This document shows, in pieces, positions 6,465 through 21,829 of a stretch of 31,840 nt of DNA. Every line of letters begins with the position of its first letter. Position 1 is the first letter of the stretch. The notes below the pieces were generated by a model, which did not search any database, was not told the DNA's origin, and worked only from the letters and a program-made list of their open reading frames with translations. Source of the stretch: a virus; IMG/VR virus record IMGVR_UViG_3300008448_009303, positions 1 to 31,840 of that record, one strand, 5' to 3'. A program made the position numbers and the translations under genes.

Positions 6465-7811
6465 ATGGCAGATTTAAGACCAATTGGTAGTGAAAAATTA
6501 GAAGGAGTGGATAAGTTGAGAAGGATTATGGAAATCGCAACTTATAAAGAAACCCCAAAAACTGAATTAAATAATTTGTCAACAACAAATTATACCATTC
6601 AATTATCTGATGGTAACTTTTATGGTATTGTAAAAGAAAGACAAGGGTATATTATTAAAACAGGTGTCAATGAGTCTAACATGGATTATTCGGACCCTAT
6701 GAAAAATAGAAAATATTATCGTTCATATTCAGAAGCGATGAAAAAATTAAATTTAATTGTTGCTGAAACAAATAGAATAACTGGTAATGATAATGAAATT
6801 CCACTTATTGGTGAACAACCTGAGGTAAAAAAAAAATTCGTACTGAAAACAGCTAAAAAGGACACACCTGCTCCTGAAGCTCCCGCACCTGATATGGCGA
6901 CTCCGGCTCCTGAAGCACCAGCTTCCGAAGCACCGGCTCCAGAAGTACCGTCTCCCGTAGCACCTGCCGATGACATGTCAGCCCCAACACCTGAAATGGG
7001 TGGAGATACTGATATGGGAATGGGTCTCGACATGGGTGGAGAGGAAACACCAGAAGAACCAGAAATGCCAATGGCACCTGGAGACGCACCTATGTTAGAT
7101 AATGAAACCGATGTAGAAGGTGATGATGAAGAAGGCGGACCAAGTAATTTAAAATTAATCCAAAAACTTACAGGTAAATTAAGTCAAAAATTAAGAATGT
7201 TTGATAAAGATAAGGGACTTGATTCACAAGATATTAAATACGTAATTAATTCAATAGTGTCAGCTATTAATTTAAGTAAGTTAGATGACGACGATAGAGA
7301 AGACATCGTAGATAAAATTGAAGGGTTTGATGAGTATGGTAAAGAAGGTGAAGGTGATTTAGACTTTGATATGGGAGAGTTTGATATGGGGGGTGAAGAA
7401 ATGCCAACTGACGAAATGCCAACTGACGAAATGCCAACTGACGAAATGCCAACTGACGAAATGCCAATCGAACCCGAAACTAAAGAAGGGTATCAAACTG
7501 TAATGGATTCAATTTTTGGTGAGTCTCAAGTTGAGAAAGTTTTATCAGGTTATTTTGATTTTAAAGAAGAGGAAGCTCCGATTTTAGAGGTAAAAAGTAA
7601 AATGGACTTTTTAAAAAATAAAATTAATAGAATTTCACAAAAACAAGAATTAAAAAATTTATCAGTTAATGAAACACAAATGAAGGCTGGGTTAGTTCTT
7701 TTGGAACAATACGATAACTCAACTCTAATAGGTAGAACTAATAAAAATAATTTAGTTTTTAATATTAATAATAGAGAAGTTAAACTTACACCAAACGGTA
7801 GAACTATATGA
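6465..7811 (+). CDS. acidic low-complexity protein, probable head assembly or internal protein
   Basis: A 448-residue product. Residues 1-120 form a small domain (YTIQLSDGNFYGIVKERQGY). Residues about 125-210 are Pro/Ala/Glu-rich with DMGG motifs, then a short helical domain (KLTGKLSQKLRMFDKDKG), an acidic segment with a perfect EMPTD tandem repeat, and a helical C-terminus containing MDSIFGESQVEKVLSGYF. The DMGG and PAPE motifs recur in the C-terminal tail of the portal. It is very acidic overall, as prohead core proteins are. The stop overlaps the next gene (ATGA, 7808-7811), so translation is probably coupled. The function is inferred from context only. Confidence 0.78.
   Translation: MADLRPIGSEKLEGVDKLRRIMEIATYKETPKTELNNLSTTNYTIQLSDGNFYGIVKERQGYIIKTGVNESNMDYSDPMKNRKYYRSYSEAMKKLNLIVAETNRITGNDNEIPLIGEQPEVKKKFVLKTAKKDTPAPEAPAPDMATPAPEAPASEAPAPEVPSPVAPADDMSAPTPEMGGDTDMGMGLDMGGEETPEEPEMPMAPGDAPMLDNETDVEGDDEEGGPSNLKLIQKLTGKLSQKLRMFDKDKGLDSQDIKYVINSIVSAINLSKLDDDDREDIVDKIEGFDEYGKEGEGDLDFDMGEFDMGGEEMPTDEMPTDEMPTDEMPTDEMPIEPETKEGYQTVMDSIFGESQVEKVLSGYFDFKEEEAPILEVKSKMDFLKNKINRISQKQELKNLSVNETQMKAGLVLLEQYDNSTLIGRTNKNNLVFNINNREVKLTPNGRTI
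7398..7467 (+). repeat. 15-bp tandem repeat encoding EMPTD
   Basis: Four exact copies of GAAATGCCAACTGAC (7398-7457) and a fifth truncated copy. The unit keeps the reading frame and encodes the acidic pentapeptide EMPTD. Perfect identity implies recent slippage expansion. Confidence 0.95.
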
Positions 7812-8209
7812 ATTTAGTTTTTATAAATGAATTAGGACCCAATTTTAGGGGAGATAACATTTATGAATTTATATTTTCAGATATTGATGACGTACACGGT
7901 GATGAGTGGGATAGTGAAACAGCAAATGGAAAACCAACACCACCTTACGTTGAATTTATAAAAAAAGTTGGTGTATTAAAAAATTCTGAGGTTGAGTTAG
8001 AATTGATACAAAATTCAGATTTTTTTGGAATGTACGATTCTGTTGACGGTGTAATTGCTTTGGGTTGGGAAAAACCTGATAATTATGAAGGGAAAAGATT
8101 AGTATTTCAATATGGTGAAAGTATTGAAATTGTAGAAAATAAATTATACGAGAAGGACATCGTATTAAAATGGGAAAAAAATTTAGTTAGTGATGAGACA
8201 TATGAATAA
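7808..8209 (+). CDS. conserved hypothetical phage protein
   Basis: A 133-residue acidic protein (FSDIDDVHGDEWDSETANGKP, then GVIALGWEKPDNYEGKRLVF), predicted compact and beta-rich. It has no signal peptide or membrane segment. It overlaps the gene before by 4 bases and the gene after by 8, and sits just upstream of terL, so it is expressed with the packaging genes. I recognise its general look from T4-like phages but no known function. Confidence 0.75.
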   Translation: MNLVFINELGPNFRGDNIYEFIFSDIDDVHGDEWDSETANGKPTPPYVEFIKKVGVLKNSEVELELIQNSDFFGMYDSVDGVIALGWEKPDNYEGKRLVFQYGESIEIVENKLYEKDIVLKWEKNLVSDETYE

Positions 8210-8849
8210 TAAAATAGCAAAACTTTTACACGAAGGGTTTTCGATGACAACTTTAGAAGGACTTAACGAAAAACAATTATCTGTTTTATTTAATAAAATT
8301 GTTTCAGAACAACCTAAACCTATTGAAAAAACAGTCACATCTAAAGTAATCGAATTACCCACAGGTGCAAAGACGGCTTTGGGTGGTGCAACCGTATCAA
8401 ATGAAGCCGGTAAAACTGTTATCACCACAACACCAACAGAAGGTGAAATTGGTGAAGAAGAGGAAGTAGATGTTACAAATGTGGATAAAGGTGAGGACGA
8501 CCAAGACCCAATTCAAATACAAGGTCCTGATGGGATGGGTGAAGGTTACATTTCAGAAAAGGCAGTTTCAAAACAACAACAAAAAATTATGGGTTTAGCA
8601 CTTTCAGTTAAAAGAGGTGATACTCCTAAATCAAAAGTTTCTAAACAAGTTCAAAAAATGGCAAAAGAAATGACAAAAAAAGAACTTGAGGATTTTGCTT
8701 CAACAAAACATAAAGGTTTACCTAAAACAGTTGATGAAAAAGAGGAAGTAGAAAAATTAGAGGAAAGTATCTTAAGAATTATTGAAAATCATTTACCTCC
8801 TCACACTACAAAAGGTGAATTACTAAATTATATTAGAAGAAACAAATAA
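8202..8849 (+). CDS. DUF3008-domain protein, immediately upstream of terL
   Basis: A 215-residue product. I prefer ATG 8202 (MNNKIAKLLHEGF) to 8190 because its overlap with the previous gene is only 8 bases. Residues 1-35 are helical, about 80-110 are an acidic linker, and about 120-178 are a DUF3008 domain: SKQQQKIMGLALSVKRGDTP and FASTKHKGLPKTV. DUF3008 proteins are small basic proteins of unknown function seen in bacteria and phages. The C-terminal helix is charged (EKEEVEKLEESILRIIENH). It lies where T4 keeps the small terminase gene 16, so a DNA-binding packaging role is possible but unproven. Confidence 0.8.
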   Translation: MNNKIAKLLHEGFSMTTLEGLNEKQLSVLFNKIVSEQPKPIEKTVTSKVIELPTGAKTALGGATVSNEAGKTVITTTPTEGEIGEEEEVDVTNVDKGEDDQDPIQIQGPDGMGEGYISEKAVSKQQQKIMGLALSVKRGDTPKSKVSKQVQKMAKEMTKKELEDFASTKHKGLPKTVDEKEEVEKLEESILRIIENHLPPHTTKGELLNYIRRNK

Positions 8850-14274: not shown

Positions 14275-14988
14275 ATGAAAATTTTAGGACCTAGCGATAC
14301 AGGTAAAGGTATATTAGTTGAGTGGGATGCAGGGATTATTAACCCTAACGAACCACGTAATCAAAGTATTATACGTGAATCTTACGGACAATTAGAACAT
14401 TCTAAACCATTTGAATTTTATGCAACTCTTCAAAAGTGGGGGGTTCCAAATAGAAACGGAAGAGTATATCCTGAAAAGATATTAAGAAGAGAATCTGAAA
14501 AATATCAAGACGCTATTAAACGTGGTATGTCCATTTCAGAATTAAATCACCCTGAATCTTCTTTAATTGACCTTGATAGAGTATCTCACCTTATCACAGA
14601 GATGTGGTGGGAAGGTAACGTATTAATGGGTAAGATTAAATTATTAACTACGCCAGGTTTTCATGAAAGAGGTATAGTATCATCTAAGGGTGATGTTGCA
14701 GCTAACATGATGAGACAAGGAGTTACTATGGGGGTATCTTCTCGCGGTGTTGGTTCATTAGTTAAAAAGGGTGACCAAAACGAAGTTCAAGACGATTTCG
14801 AATTAATTTGTTTTGACCTTGTATCTTCACCGTCCACACCTGGAGCATATCTTTACTTGAATAAAGAAGATAGACCAAGATATGAAGAAAAATTATCAGA
14901 ACATGATAATACTTTAGTTAGTGTTGGAGGTGGATTAGAAAAATCTGTTGACTTAATGAAAAGATTGTCCGACTATTTAGGAAAGTAA
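14275..14988 (+). CDS. prohead core protease (T4 gp21-like)
   Basis: A 237-residue serine protease of the T4 gp21 type. Visible motifs are NRNGRVYPEKIL (60-70), SELNHPESS with the putative catalytic His92, GVSSRGVGS with Ser155/156, and CFDLVSSPSTPGAYL with Asp181. The enzyme sits in the prohead core and, once the shell is complete, cleaves scaffold, internal proteins and the major capsid protein after (I/L)xE. Candidate IxE or LxE sites in neighbouring proteins fit: INE60 in the capsid protein, INE36 and INE156 in the 19040 protein. T4 gp21 is of similar size. Confidence 0.93.
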   Translation: MKILGPSDTGKGILVEWDAGIINPNEPRNQSIIRESYGQLEHSKPFEFYATLQKWGVPNRNGRVYPEKILRRESEKYQDAIKRGMSISELNHPESSLIDLDRVSHLITEMWWEGNVLMGKIKLLTTPGFHERGIVSSKGDVAANMMRQGVTMGVSSRGVGSLVKKGDQNEVQDDFELICFDLVSSPSTPGAYLYLNKEDRPRYEEKLSEHDNTLVSVGGGLEKSVDLMKRLSDYLGK

Positions 14989-16902: not shown

Positions 16903-18717
16903 ATGGGAGCATTATTAGAATCAGGTCTTGTTGGTAACATCGGGTTAAAACACCTTAAAGTTATCAAAGAAGATACAATCAACAAATGGGATAAATTAGG
17001 ATTCCTAGACGGTCTTAAAGGACACATCAAAGAGAACATGGCACAGTTATATGAAAACCAAGCTTCTCACCTAATCAACGAAGCGGCTTCTACGGATAGC
17101 TCAGGTTCTTTCGAAACTGTAGTTTTCCCTATCGTAAGACGTGTATTCTCTAAATTGTTGGCTAACGATTTAGTATCTGTACAAGCAATGAACTTACCTA
17201 TCGGTAAATTGTTCTACTTTGTACCTAAAATCCAAAGCTACCAATACCCTAACGCAACTGACGGTCAGTTACACTACCCACCAATTGGAGGTCCTAACAC
17301 ACCTAACAGTAACATTGGTCAAGGTTATAATTCAACGGATAAAAACCTTTACGATAGATTTTACGAAGGTTCTGAACCAACATTAGACCCTCCAGGATTA
17401 TTTGACTATTCTAAAGGTAGATTCTCGGCTATAACTACAAATGCTGTAACTGTTGCTTGGAGCAGCGGTCAATTAGTTGAGTCAGCATATGCTGCGGGCG
17501 AATACAGAAAAGTTCTTTTAATTCTTTCAGGTTTCTCTAGTGCGGGTGCCGGTAAATTAATCGGACCTGAAGGTCAAGAAATGGATAATGAAGCTTTCTT
17601 ATCTGATTTACAAGTTAACGCATTAACTGGTGTAGGTTCACCTGAAAGAGCATTCTCAGGAGCGGGTACTTCAGACTTACTTTTCCGTGTAGTTACTCAA
17701 AAATATGGTAAAGGTATCGTTCAATACGGTTCACAACAAGCTACAACTTTCTACAGTGGTAGTTACAAGGGAAATGGTGGTTCTTATGACAATATCTGTG
17801 ATGCAGCAGGTTTCATCTACTTAGAAGTTGATTTACAAGTACCATGTGCAATCGGAGCTAACTCAATTGATGGTTACTCAGGTTTAACAACTACATTTGC
17901 CGCTGCGGCAGGAGGACAATTTTCATGTTCTTATAGAGTATACGAAGAATTAGAATTCGAAGACAAAATTGGTGAGGTTTCTTTCGACTTAGAATCAGTA
18001 ACTGTTTCTGTAACTGAAAGAAAATTAAGAGCACAATGGTCTCCTGAATTGGCACAAGACGTTTCTGCATTCCATAACATCGATGCTGAAGCTGAATTAA
18101 CAGCTTTATTATCTGAGCAAGTAGCAGCAGAAATCGACCGTGAAATTTTACGTGACTTACGTAAAGGTGCAGCTTGGAACTTACGTTGGGACTACAACGG
18201 ATGGAAAAGAGGTACTTCTTCTAACCCTTTAACTCAATACACTCAAAAAGATTGGAATCAAACATTGATTACAGCAATTAACCAAATTTCAGCACAAATC
18301 CACAAATCTACATTAAGAGGTGGAGCTAACTGGATTGTTGTATCTTCTGAGATTTCCGCTATCTTTGACGATTTAGAATACTTCCACGTATCTAACGCGT
18401 CTCCTGAGCAAGACCAATACAACATGGGTATTGAAAGAGTTGGTACATTAGCTGGTCGTTACCAAGTTTACCGTGACCCTTACTTCCCACCGAACACAGT
18501 ATTGTTGGGACACAAAGGTTCTTCATTGTTAGATACTGGTTACGTTTACGCACCATATGTTCCTCTACAATTAACACCTACAATGTATAACCCATTCAAC
18601 TTCACACCTATCAAAGGTATCATGACAAGATACGCTAAGAAAATGGTTAACAACCGTTTCTACGGACGTATCACAGTTGATGGAGTTAGAACATTCGACT
18701 TGAGAGAATTGAGATAA
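16903..18717 (+). CDS. major capsid protein (T4 gp23-like)
   Basis: A 604-residue T4-type capsid protein. The N-terminal 60 residues form the helical delta-peptide (LYENQASHLINE), with a predicted protease site INE60|A, near T4 gp23's cut after residue 65. The gp23-like core follows: VFPIVRRVFSKLLANDLVSV, GKLFYFVPK, then YEELEFEDKIGEVSFDLESV, EITERKLRAQWSPEL-like text (SVTERKLRAQWSPELAQD), AAEIDREILRDL and a C-terminal GRITVDGVRTF. Codons differ from neighbours, with many C-ending AAC, TTC, TAC and ATC, as expected for the most abundant phage protein. It lies 36 bases after the scaffold gene with only an A-rich leader, and a terminator follows. Confidence 0.95.
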   Translation: MGALLESGLVGNIGLKHLKVIKEDTINKWDKLGFLDGLKGHIKENMAQLYENQASHLINEAASTDSSGSFETVVFPIVRRVFSKLLANDLVSVQAMNLPIGKLFYFVPKIQSYQYPNATDGQLHYPPIGGPNTPNSNIGQGYNSTDKNLYDRFYEGSEPTLDPPGLFDYSKGRFSAITTNAVTVAWSSGQLVESAYAAGEYRKVLLILSGFSSAGAGKLIGPEGQEMDNEAFLSDLQVNALTGVGSPERAFSGAGTSDLLFRVVTQKYGKGIVQYGSQQATTFYSGSYKGNGGSYDNICDAAGFIYLEVDLQVPCAIGANSIDGYSGLTTTFAAAAGGQFSCSYRVYEELEFEDKIGEVSFDLESVTVSVTERKLRAQWSPELAQDVSAFHNIDAEAELTALLSEQVAAEIDREILRDLRKGAAWNLRWDYNGWKRGTSSNPLTQYTQKDWNQTLITAINQISAQIHKSTLRGGANWIVVSSEISAIFDDLEYFHVSNASPEQDQYNMGIERVGTLAGRYQVYRDPYFPPNTVLLGHKGSSLLDTGYVYAPYVPLQLTPTMYNPFNFTPIKGIMTRYAKKMVNNRFYGRITVDGVRTFDLRELR

Positions 18718-19039: not shown

Positions 19040-20134
19040 ATGGAAATAAAAAATAATAAAATTAAATCTATTGACGGTTGGGTAGAAATTAAACCCGATG
19101 TTCTTACTGAAGACTACATCACGTTCTTTAAAAAAAATATTAATGAAGCCACGGGTGATAGGGTTGGTGGGTCCGGTTCATATGTACCACCATTACAACC
19201 TGGTATGAGACCATTTAAAAAAGATGCGTTAGCACCGTTTTTAGATTCAGTATCTGATTTTGATAGTCCATTAGTTGCTTATGATAGTTATGATCACAGT
19301 TGGGATCTTAGAAGAGATCAAATAAAAGATTTAGAAAGAACCGCAAAAAAAATTACAGATTACATAAAAAAACACCCATACTCCACTTTTTCTGATCAAG
19401 ATGGTAACGTTATAAATCAAACACCAAGTGGAAAAACAAAAAAAAGATCTTCTAATTTAGAAATAGTCCCAATTGAGCATCCAAAAAACAAAAGAAAAAT
19501 TAACGAAATAACAACATCAACAACTTCAGGTGAATATAGTGGGCCACAAGAATTAGGTATGCGAAAATGGAAACCATCTGAGATGGGAGCCTTTTCTAAT
19601 ACCGTAAAAACAGATTATAATTTTACAACAATTAAAAATACAATTAAAAATAACGTAAAAAAAATTGTTGGTGGATGGGAACCACAAAATGGGACATTTG
19701 AGGTTCCTTCGCATAACGTTAATTCAAAAAAAGAAAAAAGGATTAAATCACACGGTGAAGTTTTAGATGACCCAATAAATTGGTACAAAAACTTTGATAA
19801 GAGAAACTTAGCAAAGAAAATCGCAAAAAAATCTATAATGGAAGATTTAGCGGTTTGGTTTGGTAAAAAGAAGAAACCTAAGGGATCTTCTCAACCAAAA
19901 GGTCCTTGGGTTGACATTTGTCGTAAAGTCGATGGAAAACACCCCCCTTGTGGAAGACAAGACACTTCTAAAGGTTCTTACCCTAAATGTCGTGCTGCGG
20001 GAGTGGCAGGTAAAATGAGTGATTCTCAAAAAAGAGCTGCTTGTCAACAAAAAAGATCCGCAGAAAGAAAAGATACTCAAACAGGTAAAGGTCAAAAACC
20101 TATTATGACAAGTTATAAACCAAGAAAAAAATAA
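19040..20134 (+). CDS. basic Cys-rich DUF5872-like protein with internal duplication
   Basis: A 364-residue product. Residues 34-71 and 154-189 are two copies of one module: INE, a Gly/Ser/Thr stretch, GxY, then PGMR or LGMR, a basic-aromatic step (FKK, WKP) and a final Phe. Each begins with INE, a candidate prohead-protease site. The C-terminus (about 270-345) is very basic with paired Cys: GPWVDICRKVDGKHPPCGRQ, YPKCRAAG, SQKRAACQQKRSAE, matching DUF5872-type modules seen in large phages; function unknown. The basic tail and cleavable modules suggest a capsid-internal, DNA-associated protein. It precedes the 20137 gene by two bases. Confidence 0.8.
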   Translation: MEIKNNKIKSIDGWVEIKPDVLTEDYITFFKKNINEATGDRVGGSGSYVPPLQPGMRPFKKDALAPFLDSVSDFDSPLVAYDSYDHSWDLRRDQIKDLERTAKKITDYIKKHPYSTFSDQDGNVINQTPSGKTKKRSSNLEIVPIEHPKNKRKINEITTSTTSGEYSGPQELGMRKWKPSEMGAFSNTVKTDYNFTTIKNTIKNNVKKIVGGWEPQNGTFEVPSHNVNSKKEKRIKSHGEVLDDPINWYKNFDKRNLAKKIAKKSIMEDLAVWFGKKKKPKGSSQPKGPWVDICRKVDGKHPPCGRQDTSKGSYPKCRAAGVAGKMSDSQKRAACQQKRSAERKDTQTGKGQKPIMTSYKPRKK

Positions 20135-20136
20135 AA

Positions 20137-20580
20137 ATGAATAATAATAGATTTAGACAACTTTTAGAATCTAAAATGGGAAATGTTAAACCATTATTGT
20201 TGGAACAACCAACACCGGATAAAAAATTAAATCTTCTTTGTCAAGGCGGTAAAGATCAACAAAATTTAGAAAATCTAACATATAGTAGTGAACGAGACAT
20301 GAATGGTGGATTACAACAAAATGTAGGTTATAAACAAATTTATTTAAATATGGGTGCTTCACCTGTGGCCCAAGAATATGAACCACAGGGGAGTCAGATA
20401 TTTGTTAGAGTATTTAATGGGAGTAATCCTAGTTTAGATAGATTTAGAGACACTATAAAAGTTGACAACTCACAAGATAAAATGGTAATACTTTATACCC
20501 CTACAGAATCAAATCCTTACTTTTGTACTATAGATAGTGGAACAGACCAAGAATGGGCCGATTATTTTAATTCCCTTTAA
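20137..20580 (+). CDS. small hypothetical protein with leader-like N-terminus
   Basis: A 147-residue product. It starts with a short amphipathic helix, MNNNRFRQLLESKMGNVKPL, ending in LLLE|QP, which resembles a capsid-targeting leader with an LxE cleavage site. The rest is a mixed alpha/beta domain with two Cys (QIFVRVFNG, DKMVILYTPTESNPYF). No family is recognised. It lies two bases after the DUF5872-like gene and is cotranscribed with it. The last 14 bases overlap the end of the convergent lipoprotein gene, with no terminator visible. Confidence 0.72.
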   Translation: MNNNRFRQLLESKMGNVKPLLLEQPTPDKKLNLLCQGGKDQQNLENLTYSSERDMNGGLQQNVGYKQIYLNMGASPVAQEYEPQGSQIFVRVFNGSNPSLDRFRDTIKVDNSQDKMVILYTPTESNPYFCTIDSGTDQEWADYFNSL

Positions 20581-21340: not shown

Positions 21341-21829
21341 TTAACAATATGATCCTGAACAATGTTTTTTTCCGTCAAGACCTGGTTTTTTACCTTTACA
21401 TACTTGTACTGCGTATCCATTTGCATAAGCTGAAGGATAAACATCATATTTTGCCTTTGCTGCGGCTTTACCTCTAGCACAAAGTTTAGTTCCTGTTTTT
21501 TTTCTACCTTCCATCATAACCATGTCTTCATCATCAATATTCATAGAAAGTTCCATACCACTCTTTTTTGATTCATTCATTAAAAAATCAAAAACTTGGT
21601 CCATATTATTTTTTGCCTCCGCAATATGATCTTGAGCCCAATCGTGACCATTTTCTAAAATAGATTCGATCATACTATGATCCAAATCTAATAACAAATC
21701 ACATTGTCTTCTCATTTGTTCTAAATTAGAAAAGAACATATATCTTGAAGATTCTTTTTCTTGTCTTGAAGGGGTATCCTCAACAGTTTCTCTAATAATT
21801 TTTTTAATAATGTTGTCTAAATTTCTCAT
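21341..21829 (-). CDS. Cys-containing basic-tail phage protein (YPSAYANGYAVQVCKG)
   Basis: A 162-residue product. The N-terminal helix MRNLDNIIKKIIRETVEDTP contains IIRE|T, a candidate IxE protease site. Residues 25-95 are helical and acidic; residues about 107-162 are a basic Cys module, TGTKLCARGKAAAKAKYDVY then PSAYANGYAVQVCKGKKPGL, ending HCSGSYC. From memory this module is widespread in large marine and Bacteroidota phages and often occurs with DUF5872-like proteins; its function is unknown. It is the last gene of the long minus-strand structural cluster, directly after the NGLNN-tail gene, and may be a capsid-internal protein. Confidence 0.78.
   Translation of the reverse strand: MRNLDNIIKKIIRETVEDTPSRQEKESSRYMFFSNLEQMRRQCDLLLDLDHSMIESILENGHDWAQDHIAEAKNNMDQVFDFLMNESKKSGMELSMNIDDEDMVMMEGRKKTGTKLCARGKAAAKAKYDVYPSAYANGYAVQVCKGKKPGLDGKKHCSGSYC

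Follow-up and report, generated by a model that had tools for sequence, protein, structure and literature searches.

The prohead protease gp21 of phage T4 has the specificity L/I-X-E, and T4 IPs carry leaders of 10-19 residues that target them to the head; published CTS or propeptide lengths run from about 7 to 65 residues, and an Asp at P1 prevents the processing of T4 IPIII (PMC9026906). A second source (PMC5694885) puts the propeptide of T4 gp23 at 65 residues and the cut propeptide relevant to T4 gp24 at 10-20 residues, and describes gp53 and gp54 of SPN3US as identical in their N-terminal 15 residues and otherwise diverged.

The stretch of DNA analyzed here (31,840 nt, hereafter the window) is part of a virus from IMG/VR and contains a head cluster of the T4 type, made up of TerL, the Gp20 portal, a Peptidase_S77 and Gp23. 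We examined the protein encoded 3′ of the Gp23 gene (the target; Table 1) and consider it, with a probability of about 75%, to be an internal protein that a T4-type leader targets to the head and that the S77 protease cuts after Glu36, Glu156, and Glu268. The target ORF itself matched no peptidase family (Pfam, E 0.1). In the S77 protease, the residues aligned with His85 and Ser140 of the T4 protease, whose numbers and roles we assume here, were retained in 14 of the 14 rows compared. Elsewhere in the window, the protein encoded at 6465-7811 was seen to repeat EMPTD in tandem and to contain long stretches rich in Pro, Glu, and Asp.

Table 1. Positions of the target, its predicted parts, and neighboring genes in the window, with examples of leaders (↓ marks the junction or predicted cut)
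Feature	Position	Strand	Remark
Target ORF, 364 aa	19040..20134	+	3′ of Gp23 gene, same strand
Leader, residues 1-36, candidate capsid-targeting propeptide	19040..19147	+	ends INE36
Extra LTE24 within target leader	codon 19109-19111	+	
Glu36 codon, predicted cut 1	19145..19147	+	
Module copy 1, residues 37-71	19148..19252	+	ATGDRVGGSGSYVPPLQPGMRPFKKDALAPFLDSV
Predicted fragment 1, residues 37-156, 13.6 kDa	19148..19507	+	predicted product
Glu156 codon, predicted cut 2	19505..19507	+	
Module copy 2, residues 157-189	19508..19606	+	
Predicted fragment 2, residues 157-268, 12.8 kDa	19508..19843	+	predicted product
Glu268 codon, predicted cut 3	19841..19843	+	IME↓DLAVWFG
Predicted fragment 3, residues 269-364, 10.6 kDa	19844..20131	+	DUF5872-like tail
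Gp23 major capsid protein (MCP)	16903..18717	+	Pfam E 9.6e-72
Predicted MCP maturation site	Glu codon 17080-17082	+	INE60↓AASTDSSGSF
Peptidase_S77 prohead protease, presumed cutter	14275..14988	+	Pfam E 1.1e-23
Next gene	20137..20580	+	reads MNNNRFRQLLESKMGNVKPLLLE↓QPTPDKKLNLLCQ
Neighbor protein	21341..21829	-	leader MRNLDNIIKKIIRE↓T at 21788-21829, same kind of leader
Leader types			MKKIIRLTESDLTRIVRRVINE-like; MNLQENIRRILRE; MKELIRHILRE
Further leader example			MDLNQIIKKVLSE

Duplicated modules and conserved junctions

The first-pass annotation had proposed an internal duplication of residues 34-71 (19139-19252) and 154-189 (19499-19606), each opening with INE, and this duplication was confirmed far above chance. 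In local BLOSUM62 alignments, residues 1-120 scored at best 58 against the rest of the protein, as did copy 1 against copy 2; among shuffled target proteins (mean 33, sd 5.7), 1 of 2000 reached this score. At the family level, an hhalign comparison of the copy-1 and copy-2 columns gave a probability of 98.8 (E 9.5e-17). Nine of ten control windows stayed at or below a probability of 1.2 (two of these nine being based on just 5 and 10 sequences), and the tenth, residues 126-166, gave 58.8 because of its overlap with copy 2.

Relatives from IMG/VR were taken from a scan of viral contigs, with 80 of 177 relatives listed, and from a second, MCP-based scan covering 80 of at least 598 loci, from which family relatives near those MCP matches were included. 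The 136 ORFs matched corresponded to 97 distinct sequences, of which the 86 longer than 200 aa were used and 11 shorter ones left out; some short family members may derive from truncated contigs. In the 111 distinct module copies of the 86 members listed, the P1 Glu (109/111), Gly (111/111), Tyr/Phe (111/111), Pro (107/111), and Trp/Phe (111/111) were conserved. The filter applied to these copies (G.[YF], at least 35 residues) removed no copy for want of G.[YF]. The resulting pattern reads [I/L]xE↓(A)T...(S/A/R)Gx(Y/F)xxP...Gx(R/K)x(W/F)....LxPF, and conservation extends about 33 residues past the Glu, beyond the triplet alone. With a 65-aa module as tblastn query, cultured phages returned five records at E 4-7 only, a weak test given the short query.

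Each module copy begins directly after the Glu of an [I/L]xE triplet, which matches the specificity of T4 gp21. For sites 1 and 2, P3 was I in 64, L in 35, and V in 2 of 101 distinct contexts, collected with a pattern that demanded Glu, favored a hydrophobic P3, gave no module in 9 of the 86 members, and chose a Glu four residues too early in one of them (L101); since Glu was demanded there, the profile of the 111 copies is the fairer test of this residue. The linkers 5′ of copy 2 differ among members in both length and sequence, the triplet being kept, e.g. IVPIKE↓SDST, EWVEITE↓ASTS, and NKRKINE↓ITTS.

A third conserved site, overlooked in the first pass, lies before the Cys-rich tail (residues 269-364; calculated pI 10.3, 4 Cys). 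The motif [I/L/V]xE↓DLxVWFG was found in all 86 members, in 84 by pattern and, by eye, in two more whose leaders are very short (LSE↓D and LKE↓D). Among 60 distinct contexts of this site, P1 was Glu in 60/60 and P3 was I/L/V in 60/60, neither being demanded by the pattern; I/L/V occupied P4 in 22% and P2 in 2%. Glu156 and Glu268 were invariant in an alignment of 26 members. V at P3 is a small departure from the gp21-type substrate rule (P3 I/L and P1 Glu), seen in 2/101 contexts of sites 1 and 2 and in 10/60 of site 3; the window protein has I at all three and follows the rule at every junction. The short motif [I/L]xE occurs four times in the window protein (24, 36, 156, 268), as compared with 1.6 occurrences expected from composition.

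The units between these sites are kept or lost as wholes. Both modules were present in 46 of the 86 distinct members, the first alone in 26, the second alone in 9, and neither in 5. In L114, which lacks the first module, the second one follows straight after the leader (MLDDIIKKVLNE↓ISTS). In members without modules, the leader abuts the tail: (i) MSKYILSE↓DLAVWFG in L142; (ii) MSQLKE↓DLAVWFG in L095; and (iii) MDNNKELIKNILRE↓DLAVWFG in L089. As the first module or both are absent in some relatives, every internal junction is a leader junction somewhere. Five distinct sequences (L003, L005, L030, L062, and L071) displayed in-frame fusions of the target to the following protein via a complete internal leader. 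The fusion partner in L030 and L071 is related to window gene 20137-20580 (E 1.4e-17 and 3.9e-14), and the leader joining it differs from the leader of that window gene.

An AlphaFold model derived from 26 sequences was poor (mean pLDDT 47), with site 1 near the end of helix 23-38, site 2 in coil, and site 3 in a helix (254-273) of low confidence. As weak evidence, such a model would fit a loosely folded substrate. Virion proteomics of immuto-like phages was not found in the literature, as judged by titles and abstract beginnings.

The capsid protein and the module register

The predicted capsid cleavage site INE60, named in the first pass, is present in the window MCP opposite LTE65 of T4 gp23, and all 157 full-length MCP ORFs, 126 of them distinct, kept INE. 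A search for the repeat in other phage proteins had also been suggested. We ran a module HMM on 6990 ORFs of 162 sequences, and the recurrent class outside the family was Gp23. At 5 bits or more, it matched 97 MCPs, 4 reversed ORFs, and 2 other ORFs, both of which turned out to be clear family modules overlooked by the family search. The best reversed ORF (8.4 bits) scored level with the best MCP (8.5 bits), and no individual MCP match is therefore significant (best E about 0.6). In 157/157 MCPs tested (158 MCP ORFs in total), the MCP Glu fell on module-HMM position 8, which in the target is occupied by Glu36 and Glu156. The repeat recurs on Gp23 in weak, individually insignificant matches, and in no other recurrent class; the probable link to the MCP rests on recurrence and on a register that does not look chance-like, the MCPs not being independent of each other.

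In module scans of whole records, matches with an E of at most 1 were obtained for 29 of 30 contigs; they comprised the family itself, an MCP-sized ORF in 9 records (first 14 positions), and a third family described below. The proposal that the module mimics the entire Gp23 N-arm up to P..R..F was dropped, as similarity to the MCP stops at model position 19/20 among the matches listed. The few remaining weak whole-record matches look chance-like. Weak module matches were noted at G009:94694-94735 (E 0.0019, in a 151-aa ORF) and in G012 (114046).

Several other proteins were observed to carry similar stretches. A third family shows weak module matches with repeats like KE↓ATGTGSAGGY, in G009 (104211-104939, L162; E 9.9e-5) and, more weakly, in G012 (near 286080, L165) and G022 (near 200635, L163). 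Its ATxxSGSY-type repeats follow a Glu (KE↓ATGTGSAGGYEAPLF, TE↓ATDSSSSGSY), and it contains a conserved stretch like KKCKRFPYCNQGD. Small genes between gp20 and the protease in immuto (L207:5436-5657) and Mel-JY01 (L208:4449-4985), a place that corresponds to that of T4 genes 67/68, read ..EE↓MSTTGAVGGY and ..NE↓ENVTGNVDGY and resemble the module start by eye.

The first-pass annotation had suggested that the prohead protease may cut twice at INE and release the Cys-rich tail. As the triplet is kept in variable linkers, shares the MCP register, and marks the places where units are gained or lost, the INE sites appear, by comparison, to behave as prohead-protease sites. The conserved sites number three rather than two, and the tail would be freed at the third, Glu268, and not at the INE copies.

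Leaders of related proteins and relatives of the tail

Where the start was clear, leaders of relatives measured 6-24 aa; the 36-residue leader of the target is an atypical long variant, which agrees with known CTS in being N-terminal, within about 7-65 residues, and terminated by [I/L]xE. A profile built from 23 target-family leaders was run on 903 genes, defined by a simple ORF rule, from the window and from three related contigs of large size. It matched 64 of the 903 N-termini (46 clusters by mature part; 3 of the 64 were target-family genes whose leaders were already in the profile), as compared with 2 matches in shuffled N-termini and 5 in 670 random internal windows. Leaders were detected in 37/384 genes of G012 (304 kb; 31 clusters by mature part), 21/341 of G009, 5/141 of G011, and 1/37 of the window. 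The sole window gene above the cut-off was the neighbor 21341-21829, and the long leader of the target scored below it. The profile was not enriched in immuto (2/209 N-termini vs. 2/136 internal windows) and matched 0/36 genes of a T4 stretch. As it rewards Glu, a fair test omits this residue; with Glu omitted from the motif, Glu came next in 33/38 N-terminal and 2/14 internal matches. The leaders of relatives are shared or swapped among unrelated proteins. They resemble basic amphipathic helices, and nine leader-tagged proteins compared with Pfam gave no match above the family cut-off.

The 63 genes with N-terminal leaders in the large contigs lie in G012 (L168-L183), G009 (L184-L198), and G011 (L199-L206). 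Their leaders and that of the window gene end in [I/L/V/M]xE, one ending in Gln, and the 46 clusters are candidate head-packaged proteins. Upstream of TerL, a protein with a DUF3008 domain (8190-8849; Pfam E 2.6e-15) begins MNNKIAKLLHE↓G, possibly another leader. Leader-like N-termini of other types were seen in window genes 1105-1926 and 20137-20580 (MTESEKSRILGMH... and RFRQLLESKMGNVKPLLLE↓Q). Apart from those of the target family itself, none of the 64 leader sites has the SGxY stretch. A requirement of SGx(Y/F) for cutting is not favored, since the stretch cannot be needed if those sites are cut too.

In the family of neighbor protein 21341-21829, 60 distinct leaders were sorted by pattern into 27 LTES-type and 29 short-type leaders (two of the latter read as LTES-like), with 4 unmatched, of which two hold KE at the expected place and two lack a leader, judging from the ORF start (MSSR, MNNTR). 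Both types end in xE and precede a conserved YMFFSNL-like body, showing a swap of leader types between homologues. The neighbor has a C-terminal domain (phrog_27331) that stands alone in pelagiphages and lies beside the capsid scaffold gene in P-SCSP2.

A 22-aa leader consensus gave no tblastn match in cultured phages, the short query making this a weak test. The strings 'RLTESDL', 'LTESDLHRIV', and 'LTESDLTRIV' were not found in the literature searched, nor was a description of such leaders among the matches listed (titles and abstract beginnings). The N-terminus of T4 gp24, MAKINELLRESTTTNSNSIG, closely resembles these leaders; its cut lies, we presume, after residue 10.

The tail had been labeled DUF5872-like. 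A remote relation may exist via stand-alone phage proteins; the tail itself gave no Pfam DUF5872 match at E 1 or E 10, in a search where HMMER filters drop most matches above 0.1. In the phage collection, a tblastn search with the target (E 0.01) returned two records only, both Pelagibacter phages and both via the tail. Among 2328 ORFs, a tail HMM matched gp25 of pelagiphage HTVC106P (E 2.5e-11) and gp50 of HTVC027P (E 3.8e-13), both of which begin near the equivalent of predicted cut 3. A true DUF5872 protein of Prochlorococcus phage P-SCSP2, located between the scaffold and capsid genes, matched PF19197 at 5e-14 and the tail profile at E 0.016 only; against PF19197, HTVC027P gp50 gave 5.2e-4, below cut-off, and HTVC106P gp25 gave no match. 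The pelagiphage tail genes adjoin a gene for another small basic protein, a relative of the tail of neighbor 21341-21829 (E 2e-17 and 1.5e-15 in pelagiphages, 1.7e-20 in P-SCSP2). In Flavobacterium phage immuto, a cultured phage, a single chain (gp084) seems to combine the two kinds of tail domain, reading IENIIKEILSE↓KKADRC...AIQELLQE↓DETLHKWFSRKG, with the Glu of ILSE at 19 and that of LLQE at 87; both matches are weak and fall on the same ORF (E 0.33 for the target tail, 0.14 for the neighbor tail).

Interpretation and comparison with known systems

The sequences display the duplication, [I/L/V]xE at three junctions, units present or absent there, the MCP register, and exchangeable leaders; cleavage, cutting by the S77 protease, and location of the pieces in the head are inferred. 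In the mechanism we propose, the short CTS-type N-terminal leader would carry the target into the prohead core, and the S77 prohead protease would cut the chain during maturation. The cut after Glu36 would remove the leader, and those after Glu156 and Glu268 would yield two module-headed fragments (ATxxxSGxYxxP...GxRxW....LxPF) and a 96-residue basic Cys-rich fragment, the presumable counterpart of the free-standing small protein of other phages. Most speculatively, the tail might bind DNA and the module might dock on the inner shell or core.

The rival readings differ on whether the chain is cut and where its pieces end up. A prohead core (scaffold-like) protein would receive the same three cuts, mostly be cleared before DNA packaging, and have no role in the mature virion. 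According to PMC9026906, gp21 cuts T4 core proteins into several pieces that are mostly removed; the target, too, offers more than one site and is poorly structured in its model. However, its gene follows gene 23 and does not lie between 20 and 21, the place of T4 67 and 68, and conserved fragments, units kept or lost whole, and a tail that is free-standing elsewhere are unlike sacrificial filler, so that we regard this reading as unlikely. The reuse of whole units argues for pieces that stay in the head as T4 IPs do, rather than being cleared like core proteins.

It is quite improbable that the chain remains uncut and the repeats are short motifs binding the MCP, portal, or scaffold, with the Glu as part of the binding site. 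The roughly 33 conserved residues after the Glu do exceed the published need of gp21, and the SGx(Y/F) stretch is common to the module and the MCP arm. Such motifs would nevertheless leave unexplained why [I/L/V]xE precedes the unrelated DLAVWFG tail (60/60), why Glu ends the leaders of unrelated proteins, and why a leader can abut the tail directly. Very improbable, in our view, is a leader that sorts proteins to a target outside the head, such as a membrane or a host complex, with the final Glu merely capping a helix. The amphipathic look of the leaders, the genome-wide spread of tagged genes in G012, many of them distant from the head cluster, and the nine tagged proteins devoid of Pfam matches above cut-off would suit a sorting signal, but [I/L/V]xE is found within the chain, at its internal junctions, as well as at the site of MCP maturation, and complete leaders lie internally in natural fusions of the target with its partner.

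With head targeting and S77 cleavage as the preferred reading, a wider one can be formulated, to which we give slightly less than even odds: a lineage of uncultured T4-like phages loads its heads with many small proteins, in a varying assortment, via exchangeable leaders that the protease can remove and that about a tenth of the G012 genes carry; the window protein is its three-product polyprotein, and ATxxxSGx(Y/F) is a docking element. The maturation protease, instead of separate genes, would then yield three products, with the cut sites as joints for unit swaps, and the ATxxxSGx(Y/F) stretch that follows the cut in the MCP and in the modules would serve mature head proteins as a shared element for docking. 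If true, hypothetical proteins of environmental large phages would become a predictable class of head-packaged, probably delivered proteins, recognizable from their first 11-22 residues; one head protein would be a polyprotein in which the sites of cleavage also serve as joints in evolution; and cargo could be loaded into phage heads with the help of natural leaders.

Cleavage by this protease class and CTS targeting are known principles; the jointing of units at cut sites, the register that the module shares with the MCP site, and the size of the leader set appear to be new. As in T4 IPI-III and Alt (CTS), a short leader ending in [I/L]xE is common to unrelated proteins, and a gp21-type protease is encoded nearby. 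In contrast to these proteins, further internal sites bound repeated, exchangeable units here, and the leader types differ; no homology of the target to IPI, IPII, IPIII, or Alt was detected (tblastn, E 0.01). T4 gp22, gp67, and gp68 also have several gp21-type sites per chain, but the target differs from them in gene place, in its conserved unit starts, and in a tail that is separate elsewhere. The inner-body and ejection proteins of phiKZ and SPN3US are likewise head proteins with propeptides cut after xxE; according to the literature, they differ in motif (S/A-x-E or A-x-E), longer propeptides, and lineage. The stand-alone pelagiphage proteins HTVC106P gp25 and HTVC027P gp50 are homologous to tail 269-364, which in the target forms the C-terminal unit, following a predicted cut, and, in the window, lacks a PF19197 match. 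Finally, the polyvalent proteins of phages and conjugative elements are, according to PMC5512222, chains of several units for which delivery and processing into units are assumed; their processing is tentatively ascribed there to an embedded MPTase domain, whereas for the target the separate S77 protease is the candidate.
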